The notes below the pieces were generated by a model. It worked only from the letters and a program-made list of their open reading frames with translations. It was not told the DNA's origin and did no database searches. Positions 911-40,723 of a DNA stretch of 40,880 nucleotides are shown here, one piece after another. This DNA comes from Candidatus Saccharimonadota bacterium (GTDB taxonomy: Bacteria > Patescibacteriota > Saccharimonadia > Saccharimonadales > Saccharimonadaceae): the NCBI GenBank assembly GCA_017515285.1, contig JAFWGN010000001.1, positions 1 through 40,880 on the forward strand, given 5' to 3'. Position 1 is the stretch's first letter; each line of letters starts with the position of its first letter. Position numbers and translations under genes: made by a program.

Positions 911-1100
911 AATAATCTCAAATAAGACTTTTCGAGACATTAAGAAGCCACGCCCAGCAGTCAAAAATACCTTGATACGGATTCAAGACTCAAAAGTCCG
1001 ATGTCGAGAATCCGACTATTAAGGTATTTTTGACGACTGCGGCGAAGTCGCGCTAGCGACGGTGGCGACCCCGTCGAGAAAAGACCTATTTGAGATTATT
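911..1100 (+). ncRNA. Nested-hairpin element A downstream of FISUMP gene
   Basis: A ~190-nt multi-branched inverted-repeat structure. The outer stem is 911-938 with 1073-1100 (14 perfect pairs, then about 10 of 14). The middle stem is 960-976 with 1018-1034 (17 pairs, one G-U), extended by CGCC 951-954 with GGCG 1041-1044. The inner stem CGGATTC 978-984 pairs with GAATCCG 1008-1014, enclosing GACT/AGTC. A side hairpin, GTCGC-GCTA-GCGAC, lies at 1047-1060. The same architecture follows the FISUMP gene at the right end of the window with compensatory changes. There is no T-tract, so it is not a standard intrinsic terminator. Whether it acts as RNA (3' UTR or independent ncRNA) or as DNA is undecided. 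Confidence 0.65.
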
Positions 1101-1165: not shown

Positions 1166-1759
1166 ATGTCAAAACTCTATTTCCGTTACGGCGCAATGGG
1201 TTGCGGAAAAACCATGCAACTCCTCCAAGTCGCCTTCAACTACGAAGAACGCGGCCACCAAGTCTGCGTAATGAAGCCCAAAACCGACACTAAAAACGGC
1301 GAGAAGCTCCTCACTCGTATCGGCCCCGAGCGCGAAACTGACCTCTGTTTCGATAGGGAAACCGACCTTTTGAAGGAAGTCGCCGAAAACTTTGCGGGCG
1401 TTTCTTGCGTCCTCGTCGATGAGTCGCAATTCTTGACCAAGGAACAAGCCGACCAACTCATGCAAATCACCATTCAACTAGACATCCCCGTCATGGCCTA
1501 TGGCTTACGTCTCAACTTTCGCCAAGAAGACGGCGGTTTCGAAGGCGCAACCCGCCTCCTTCAAATCGCGCACGACATCGAAGAGCTAAAAACCATCTGT
1601 GAATGTGGCCATAAAGCAACGATGAACTGCCGCTTTCTCGACGGAAAACTTGTTACTAAAGGCCCCGACGTTCTAATCGACGGGACGAGCAAAATCGAAT
1701 ACCGCGCCCTCTGTCCCCGCTGTTTTTATAAATACCTTCACGAGGGTAAGAACTCTTGA
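1166..1759 (+). CDS. tdk: Thymidine kinase (type II)
   Basis: Phosphorylates thymidine to dTMP in the cytoplasm (pyrimidine salvage). The 197-residue length fits type II (bacterial/TK1-like) kinases. Visible motifs are the P-loop GAMGCGKT at residues 8-15, the Walker B-like DESQF, and two zinc-binding cysteine pairs (CECG and CPRC) of the lasso domain near the C-terminus. It starts at an ATG 3-9 nt after AT-rich -10-like boxes and has no Shine-Dalgarno sequence, suggesting leaderless translation. It stands alone between the FISUMP 3' element and rpsJ. Thymidylate kinase, the next step, is encoded at 22922-23548. Salvage would suit an episymbiont with limited nucleotide synthesis (inference). 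Confidence 0.95.
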   Translation: MSKLYFRYGAMGCGKTMQLLQVAFNYEERGHQVCVMKPKTDTKNGEKLLTRIGPERETDLCFDRETDLLKEVAENFAGVSCVLVDESQFLTKEQADQLMQITIQLDIPVMAYGLRLNFRQEDGGFEGATRLLQIAHDIEELKTICECGHKATMNCRFLDGKLVTKGPDVLIDGTSKIEYRALCPRCFYKYLHEGKNS

Positions 1760-38397: not shown

Positions 38398-38552
38398 GTG
38401 CGTAAGTTATTCAATATTGTTTTAGAGAAATCTAAAAACAACCGTTCATTATTCAACAAATAATTTCATGAATCAAATACTAAATCGGCCCCGTGAGGAA
38501 GCCAGAATATATTTGATTCGTGAAAACGGTCGATATTGAATGACTTACGCAC
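38398..38552 (+). ncRNA. 155-nt structured leader RNA
   Basis: P1: 38398-38419 pairs along all 22 positions with 38531-38552, including two U-G wobbles. P2: TTTTAGA-GAAA-TCTAAAA (38420-38437), capped by a GNRA loop. P3: ACCGT with ACGGT (38441-38445/38526-38530). P4: 38464-38479 with 38510-38525 (16 pairs, one U-G). A small terminal stem has CC-GTGA-GG (38491-38498), a second GNRA loop. All wobbles are 5'-U/3'-G, pointing to a plus-strand RNA. It may be a cis-regulator of the FISUMP gene or a stable ncRNA. A short inverted-repeat mobile element is the main alternative. I recognise no Rfam class. Confidence 0.6.
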
Positions 38553-38586
38553 CTCGCGGTGCCGATTTTATATGCAGCCTTCGAGG
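38552..38586 (+). promoter_or_regulatory. Hairpin between structured leader and FISUMP start
   Basis: CCTCG (38552-38556) pairs with CGAGG (38582-38586), enclosing GGTGC/GC-A-GCC. It sits between the leader RNA and the Shine-Dalgarno AAGGAGG (38599-38605). It could be an expression platform if the leader is regulatory; its first base overlaps P1. Confidence 0.4.
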
Positions 38587-38608
38587 TTTAACAAAATCAA
38601 GGAGGACT

Positions 38609-40723
38609 ATGCAACCAACCAGAACAACAACCTTAACCGACGCAGGAAACGACCTGAAGAACCGCGGGCTCTACCGCCGACTCTTCTTCGGCTCCCTCGC
38701 GTCACTTTTTCTGTTTATCTTCAGCTTCATCCTCATCCCCGCTTTAATCGCCGAGGCTTCCGCCACCAACCTCGTCGGTGTCGGCGCTAACTGGGCGGTG
38801 ATTAGTTTAACTTTAGACCCGGATTACGAAGCGACACAATCCGCCGTTGACCCGTCCGCCGAGCAAGCTCTCGCTACGCATGGCAACATCGACTTCGGCG
38901 AGATTACTCCGACCGCCAAGGCTTCGGGAATCTCCAACTCTTCTTTTGGCAACGTCGGCACTCTAGAAATCCAGAGAAAAGTCATTCGCGTCGATACCAC
39001 TGGAAATTATTATCAAGTCTTCCTCTCCACCGCCGACGACGAATCGAATGCCCTAAAAAACAATACAAATTCCTATATTACTATCCCCGCGATTTCTAGC
39101 GACGGGACTAATAGTGGCGCTTGGTCTTCTCCGGCCTACTTTTCCGCTCAAGGTTGGGGCTATGCCGTTACGGGAGACACGGAGGCTATTACTCTTCCGA
39201 CTTTCTTTACAGCTTCTACCGCCGCTATCACGTCTTCGCTCGGAAACGAACTAACCTATATGAACGACGAAGCGGTTTATTCCGGCGTCAAGTTCTCCGC
39301 CGTTCCTCTACTGTCCAGTCCCCAACAAATCTACAAGAACACGACAAACGTCGTCGGCGGTTTCTCGGACAATAACGCCGATACGTTTAATGTTTATTAT
39401 GGCGTAATGGTTAACACTGATGTTCTCTCCGGTACTTATAGCAACCAAATCATCTATACCGCTCTTGCTTCCGCCGCTAGCTTGGACGAAGTCTCGACTA
39501 ATGTCTATGTAGAAAAATACATTATAGCAAAAGATGTCGAACAAGAAATTTCCTTCGACCTTGCCGCTAGCACTATTCCGAGCAACATTACTGCTGCCAA
39601 TACTCATGTCTATCTCGTTCCGCATTCAGAGATGTTGGCCGCCGGAAACGATGGTTACGACATCGAAGAACTAGCCGGCTATGCCAACCCGGCGAGCCAT
39701 TACAACGAATGTGAAGTGACGAGCATCAACATCGCGGAAGATAAAAGCACTCTTCTTTGCGACTCCCCCGAGAGCAGCAACGGCACCGCCGATGACTTAA
39801 CTAACGGCACGAATGGTATGTTTGATTATTGGATTCAGATTTCCGGGCTAAACTTCAACTACGTCTCTAAAACCGCCGACGGATCAGAAACCGTTGCCTA
39901 CATTGGTTTACAGTCAACTTACGAAGAAGAGAACGAAACCACCGGCGAGACCGAAACCAAGAACTATGTAACGGAAATGCAAGAGATGACGGGAGCGTTT
40001 TGTAAGAATACGAATATGTGGGGAACTGGAACTAGCGACGATGCCAGGATTTATGATAACCTCGGCGAGGACGGCAATAATCCTCTCCTTGCTGCCGGTA
40101 CCGACACGGTCGGGATCTCTAGCTTCCTTCTAACCGACAATCGCGACCAGAAAGATTACAAAGTTCGAAGATTAGCCGATGGAAACTGCTGGATGGCGGA
40201 GGAACTAAACCTCGATGTTGCCAGTGTAAATATATCAGATACGAATACCGACAATCCAACCGCAAAGTTTATAAACGAGCATGGAACAAATAGCGAATCC
40301 TGCACCGAGAACGCCACGGCGTGCGTCGAAAGAGTCAATTATCTGACTCACCCCCGCCTCACGGGAGCATTAGAATATAATTATTATACCGCTACGGCGG
40401 GAACGGTTGGCTATAGCAATACGGATGCAACCGGTTCGATTTGCTCGAGTAACTGGAGGCTACCGACAGCGGGCGGCTCCGGTACGGATTTTTACGAGTT
40501 GATTACTGGATACTATAGCATAGCTGCTAACGAACCAGACTTGTTGATAGGCTTACCGCTCTCTTTCCAAGACGGAAGATTCATATATGCCTCGTCTTCG
40601 CATACGACCAATGTAATTACTGCCGGAGACTTGTTTTACGACACCAGTGAAGACCGAATTGTTTTTTCGGATCAAACAGCCAAGTTTTATTGGTCACTAA
40701 TCCGTTGCGTCGCCCGCGACTAA
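38609..40723 (+). CDS. Membrane-anchored FISUMP-domain surface protein
   Basis: 704 residues from the ATG at 38609, chosen because AAGGAGGA precedes it; an in-frame ATG at 38540 lies within the leader's P1 stem and has no ribosome-binding site. A cytoplasmic N-terminus is followed by one membrane segment (about 28-50, RRLFFGSLASLFLFIFSFILIPALI). A long extracellular beta-rich stalk spans about 55-450 (NLVGVGANWAVISLTLDP...IDFGEITP). The FISUMP domain covers about 450-704, with TEMQEMTG, LTDNRDQKDYKVRRLADGNCWM and a final LIRCVARD. The domain's last third differs strongly from the paralogue at the left edge, while the core is nearly identical in DNA. Probably a displayed adhesin-like protein (inference). 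Confidence 0.88.
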   Translation: MQPTRTTTLTDAGNDLKNRGLYRRLFFGSLASLFLFIFSFILIPALIAEASATNLVGVGANWAVISLTLDPDYEATQSAVDPSAEQALATHGNIDFGEITPTAKASGISNSSFGNVGTLEIQRKVIRVDTTGNYYQVFLSTADDESNALKNNTNSYITIPAISSDGTNSGAWSSPAYFSAQGWGYAVTGDTEAITLPTFFTASTAAITSSLGNELTYMNDEAVYSGVKFSAVPLLSSPQQIYKNTTNVVGGFSDNNADTFNVYYGVMVNTDVLSGTYSNQIIYTALASAASLDEVSTNVYVEKYIIAKDVEQEISFDLAASTIPSNITAANTHVYLVPHSEMLAAGNDGYDIEELAGYANPASHYNECEVTSINIAEDKSTLLCDSPESSNGTADDLTNGTNGMFDYWIQISGLNFNYVSKTADGSETVAYIGLQSTYEEENETTGETETKNYVTEMQEMTGAFCKNTNMWGTGTSDDARIYDNLGEDGNNPLLAAGTDTVGISSFLLTDNRDQKDYKVRRLADGNCWMAEELNLDVASVNISDTNTDNPTAKFINEHGTNSESCTENATACVERVNYLTHPRLTGALEYNYYTATAGTVGYSNTDATGSICSSNWRLPTAGGSGTDFYELITGYYSIAANEPDLLIGLPLSFQDGRFIYASSSHTTNVITAGDLFYDTSEDRIVFSDQTAKFYWSLIRCVARD

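Follow-up and report, generated by a model that had tools for sequence, protein, structure and literature searches.

Palindromic inserts that keep the reading frame open have long been known from Rickettsia and Wolbachia. The RPE and WPE, as portrayed in excerpts of two papers, are multi-copy, taxon-restricted hairpins of about 100-150 bp that lie both between genes and in frame within conserved protein genes, and orthologues can carry different families at the same site (PMC3767692, PMC2229807). Target duplication for RPE is listed as unknown in the excerpted part of the review (PMC2229807). REP, REPIN and MITE repeats (including Correia/NEMIS and ERIC) are likewise small, non-autonomous and hairpin-forming, and some repeats of the REP or MITE type carry ORFs fused in frame, according to the same excerpt (PMC2229807). 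Two further systems come from mitochondria. The coding palindromes of Nematomorpha have arms that encode protein and stay matched, and template switching has been proposed for their upkeep (PMC6649704). The Byp elements of Magnusiomyces, insofar as they are cited in PMC6649704, are palindromic inserts within protein genes. Our literature search found no report of palindromic inserts in Saccharibacteria or Patescibacteria.

Here we describe such a repeat from a Saccharibacteria genome. The window, the whole stretch of DNA that was analysed (40,880 nt), is one whole contig (C5) of an 850-kb genome in 20 contigs (G000), and carries one copy near each end, A and B (Table 1). Both probably belong to a mobile repeat that is dispersed, non-autonomous and able to form hairpins, that resides between genes as well as in frame within them, and of which an arm can mirror the host flank.

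Folded as RNA, A and B are more stable than their dinucleotide shuffles (z = -11.2 and -7.2, respectively), and A folded as DNA gives a z of about -9 on either strand. The shared arms reported in the preliminary description are borne out: GCCACGCCCAGCAGTC has just two exact sites in the window, at 947 and 40781, with a chance expectation of 0.09 even when three mismatches are allowed. In A, 960-976 pairs with 1018-1034 (17 bp) and 978-984 with 1008-1014 (7 bp). A and B differ at three pairs of the longer stem and two of the shorter, and all five differences are compensated, as had been stated. Their inner cores are different insert types within the same shell. A proves larger than first described by virtue of an extra outer arm, whereas B, cut by the contig end, is without its 3′ outer arm. 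The outer part of A's left arm is peculiar to that locus; the outer arms of other copies differ from it but are self-complementary. At gathering thresholds, Rfam identified only a tRNA in the window and no known RNA family at the element.

Table 1. Features of the two element copies and their neighbouring genes (positions in the window).
Feature	Position	Strand	Basis
Element A, whole hairpin with its locus-specific outer arms	911..1100		fold z; own-genome BLAST copies
A left outer arm, AATAATCTCAAATAAGACTTTTCGAGAC	911..938	+	pairs with 1073-1100
A shell arm GCCACGCCCAGCAGTC, with invariant CAGCAGTC	947..962	+	exact search; 16-copy alignment
A middle and inner stems, covarying core	960..1034	+	A versus B and other copies
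A shell arm GACGACTGCGGCG, with invariant GACGACTGC	1032..1044	+	fold; 16-copy alignment
A side hairpin GTCGCGCTAGCGAC, 3′ side	1047..1060	+	fold; typical of the subfamily of this genome
A right outer arm	1073..1100	+	pairs with 911-938
Element B, truncated by contig end	40748..40880		BLAST; contig end
FISUMP-like gene upstream of A, truncated at its 5′ end by the contig edge	3..887	+	motifs NCWMV and VRCLA
FISUMP-like gene upstream of B	38540..40723	+	motif only
Thymidine kinase gene downstream of A	1166..1759	+	Pfam TK, E=5e-30

The window's genome holds at least eight copies of the element beside or inside unrelated genes. Besides A and B, BLAST against the genome itself recovers two copies on C11 and others on C6, C14 (at 95% identity) and C15; copies on different contigs share 95% identity over about 160 bp. 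Judged from the translations of their neighbours, the copies adjoin rsmA, rmuC/recR, gpsA and typA, and lie in frame inside valS and tsaE. Contigs C5, C6 and C11 all terminate within the element, which is what a repeat that interrupts assembly would produce. A gene for a DUF559/MTES_1575-like putative endonuclease adjoins an element copy on C14 (L002:2034-3164).

The two copies in the window sit after FISUMP-like genes, and the preliminary description had tied the element to that family as a structured RNA, a 3′ UTR stability element or a recombination site. The identity of both genes is motif-based; neither has a Pfam match at E<=0.01. Conserved pairing and the position of the two copies suit such a role, but among 104 distinct copies collected with their flanks only three have a FISUMP-like neighbour, all in the window's genome, where most of the 15 listed Fib_succ_major matches are without the element. 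The association was rejected on these 104 copies. About a third of the copies are in frame within protein genes, many of them essential, and a single genus accounts for the whole family, which disfavours a 3′ UTR element or small RNA as well; with no Rfam match either, a role tied to FISUMP genes is exceedingly unlikely. The alternative that had been named as fatal to the claim, a scattered repeat family, largely describes what we find, except that its members do covary.

Two observations on the FISUMP-like genes themselves may be recorded here. Outside the window, at C14:37396-39754, a 398-aa reverse transcriptase frame lies about 1.2 kb from a Fib_succ_major match, and diversity-generating retroelements could act on FISUMP proteins here. 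Two other FISUMP-like genes of this genome, without the element core (L011 at C14:108304 and L012 at C17:1403), match B's 3′ flank and left arm through GAC(A/G)ATAAGG and diverge thereafter; this may be a truncated element or a recombination joint.

The host genus appears to be Candidatus Nanosyncoccus, since, of the ValRS relatives retrieved, only Candidatus Nanosyncoccus alces bears a species name; the rest are Saccharibacteria MAGs, many from ruminant guts. The exact pattern CAGCAGTCN{45,75}GACGACTGC, scanned in 174 genomes of the genus plus controls, yields 23 copies in 11 of the 174 and zero matches in the controls. At E<=1e-3, 58 of 170 genus genomes match a covariance model of the family, with at most 16 copies in any one. 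When this model was run on 380 genomes sampled over the window's own phylum, three matched, all of the same genus, and an RNA conserved across the phylum was rejected. Nearly all of these genomes are MAGs, in which inverted repeats may be artefacts of assembly or amplification; that they recur with intact frames in assemblies made independently by several projects argues against such an origin.

Two copies alone, such as A and B, cannot show selection for pairing. The covariation itself is real. When 16 copies from the wider family are aligned, both sides have changed at 16 of 31 consensus pairs and 97% of cells are able to pair. The covariation score is 0.400, compared with 0.141 +/- 0.015 in 500 shuffles, all of which it exceeded, and at most 0.12 in controls with slid partners, every one of which fell below it. 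The core is a nested hairpin whose stems covary and whose mismatched internal loops are invariant: GACGACTGC and CAGCAGTC together form a conserved CA/GA internal loop whose bases are the same in 16 of 16 aligned copies, as is the whole of CAGCAGTC. Because this loop is invariant, the stems are not simply perfected palindromes. Several core types occur within one shell, A and B being one such pair.

Residence within genes is frequent. With a copy counted as in-gene when at least 50 codons of open frame lie to either side of it, a count that rests on open frames rather than curated gene models, 32 of the 104 copies are in frame, 27 with the + strand of the element as sense and 5 antisense. All the antisense copies lie in apparent orthologues of a single membrane-protein gene. 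The other hosts, named from translations, include ValRS (three sites), IleRS, Der, ObgE, TruB, PriA, TsaD, TsaE-TsaB and CTP synthase. Between genes, insertion is mainly at 3′ ends (27 copies convergent, 34 tandem and 1 divergent).

Across 92 genomes the three ValRS sites have bimodal insert lengths, and a fold z<-3 is found at 57 of 72 filled sites compared with 3 of 74 empty ones. The inserts fall into several unrelated sequence groups, that is, unrelated hairpin families occupy the same sites. At site 3, close relatives (G134, G145 and G146) hold different inserts, which points to fast turnover; in another pair (G035 and G004), the direction of change is ambiguous. In two ValRS genes, of G134 and G018 (L200 and L202), a second hairpin sits at the tip or loop of the first insert and the frame is open. 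In-frame copies are presumably translated, as tolerated surface loops. In an AlphaFold model of ValRS, a weak one (mean pLDDT 59), the inserts at 228-280 and 666-727 stand at about 25-33. That essential enzymes contain long hairpins at all might instead suggest that the copies are cut from the mRNA or bypassed by the ribosome, as palindromic bypass elements are known in mitochondria (mentioned in the excerpted text of PMC6649704). Neither removal nor bypass would require a copy to stay open in the frame of its gene, yet the copies counted as in-gene do so and insert-bearing ValRS genes retain one open frame; we consider this reading very improbable and take the in-frame copies as putatively translated.

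Beyond the conserved element, the outer arms are different at every locus, but each pairs with its partner. When the two 35-nt flanks of one copy are paired with each other, the mean duplex energy is -32.4 kcal/mol; flanks taken from different loci give -9.2 (n=101). The former figure includes a short element-conserved stretch by the core that the mismatched-locus control shares. Own-flank pairs fall below the first percentile of mismatched-locus pairs in 90% of cases.

Empty orthologous sites reveal where the arms come from. Between mscL and a convergent YjbR-like gene, 7 of 30 loci are filled; at the empty ones the two stop codons are mostly 0-15 bp apart without a hairpin, and some have an ordinary terminator or other genes instead. 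A filled locus (e.g., in G138) reads mscL...GAAAAGAAAGCATAATTGCAG[element]CTGCAATTATACTTTCTTTTC, in which the second arm is a mirror copy of the last part of the mscL coding sequence, and empty sites lack it. The native form of ObgE, GT(I/V)(V/I)-KK(D/N)G, occurs in four genomes: GTIV-KKDG-EL-IADL is encoded by ACTATCGTAAAAAAAGACGGCGAGCTAATCGCCGATTTG in G115, and G080, G089 and G004 are similar. In filled genes the right flank still codes (I/L)ADL and the left arm in most is its inverted copy, for example GGTCAGCAAATTAGAGCC with GGGCTCTAATTGCTGACC in G138 and AATCAGCACAAAAAG with CTTTTTGGCTGATT in G024. In most genomes the arm follows that genome's own third-position changes (GCC/GCT, GAC/GAT). 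The arms score 30.4 on average with the flank of their own genome and 17.0 with others, and the observed total was reached in 0 of 100,000 permutations (p<1e-5); in G097 and G147 the mirror ends before the IADL codons. In both ObgE and mscL, then, the arms consist of a stretch of host sequence and an inverted copy of it. These comparisons of filled and empty sites are between separate species, and take in arm creation at insertion together with any later homogenisation. Direct repeats flanking the arms are no commoner than between different loci, so no direct target duplication rises above background.

Two single loci are worth a mention. The ObgE gene of G088 (L327) has a short insert, YRIDAGDRPPERIF, that resembles a scar from deletion of the hairpin core; some short sites may be deletion scars of this kind. 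Between hisS and glyS in G119 (L137), TATAAT in the right arm immediately precedes the glyS start codon and recurs, mirrored, in the left arm directly after the hisS stop, which places a promoter-like box in an inverted duplicate. Usable orthologous empty sites upstream of glyS are few because the upstream gene varies between genomes.

Could the locus-specific arms be old stems, the element having inserted into the loop of a pre-existing hairpin such as a terminator? The location of intergenic copies at gene ends would fit, as would the hairpin upon a hairpin in the two ValRS genes. But no hairpin occupies the site in empty orthologues of mscL and ObgE, so that one was not simply waiting there; moreover, conserved coding codons lie in the arms and T runs do not follow those inspected. 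We regard this origin as unlikely.

A stronger competitor holds that the arms arise after insertion, palindromes being extended and corrected all the time by template switching, with covariation a mutational by-product and no selection for pairing. The orthologous mscL insertions of G138, G119 and G097 differ in their arms and yet keep them paired, noncoding and coding copies behave alike, and arm conversion has been proposed for the coding palindromes of Nematomorpha (PMC6649704). Blind correction, however, should erase mismatches, and the CA/GA loop has kept its own in every aligned copy. We give this account appreciably less than even weight.

What moves the element may be an enzyme or the host itself. 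A hairpin of this form could be a REP/RAYT or IS200/605-type unit moved by a Y1 transposase, or an element linked to a reverse transcriptase. We searched 170 genus genomes for Y1_Tnp (PF01797) and RVT_1, and no mobility enzyme or autonomous partner of either kind tracks the element. Reverse transcriptase genes are frequent (94 of 170 genomes) but their presence is independent of the element (odds ratio 0.99), and Y1_Tnp occurs in just 6 of 170 genomes, one of them among the 58 that bear the element, and is unassociated with it. Such a driver is hardly credible.

Instead, we would picture copying via a single-stranded hairpin, the 3′ end of which folds back and copies its own flank by a template switch. 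Synthesis would then return to the chromosome, leaving host sequence, inverted flank, hairpin, flank and host sequence in that order, and repeated template switching would keep the arms matched. Since no transposase tracks the element, the host replication machinery may suffice. Fold-back priming and template switching at quasi-palindromes are known in other systems, as excerpts of PMC10622511 and PMC10710837 indicate. The mobility of the copies is putative, as read from their distribution among sequences. More broadly, several unrelated hairpin families of the genus may share an insertion process that duplicates the host flank in inverted form, probably by transposase-free fold-back synthesis, and that repeatedly rewrites the same loops of essential enzymes; we put this forward tentatively, as a proposal falling only a little short of an even chance.

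How does the element compare with the known systems? It is a palindromic repeat of about 100-150 bp that folds into a long hairpin, with intergenic and in-frame copies both found, and would work like RPE and WPE, a likeness drawn from their descriptions. It differs most clearly in that its outer arms can mirror the host flank, a feature unstated for RPE in the excerpts of PMC3767692 and PMC2229807. Unlike REP, REPIN and MITE repeats, it is not associated with a RAYT, and direct target duplication was not detected. Byp elements are not translated (as cited in the part of PMC6649704 consulted), whereas the copies here keep an open frame. The Nematomorpha palindromes seem the nearest parallel for matched coding arms; no common core is described for them (PMC6649704), whereas the element has a repeat core between locus-specific arms.

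In closing, the covariation of these repeats carries a caution, that covariation within an inverted repeat does not necessarily imply a functional RNA. If the proposed process is true, target duplication here would be inverted rather than direct. The genus provides many copies, several families, multiple invaded sites per gene and real empty sites, and with these the entry and persistence of hairpins in essential genes become testable. Where an inverted copy of host flank follows a conserved gene through its synonymous changes, the process has left a direct molecular trace. For the organism, whose genome is reduced, the element can supply new protein loops.
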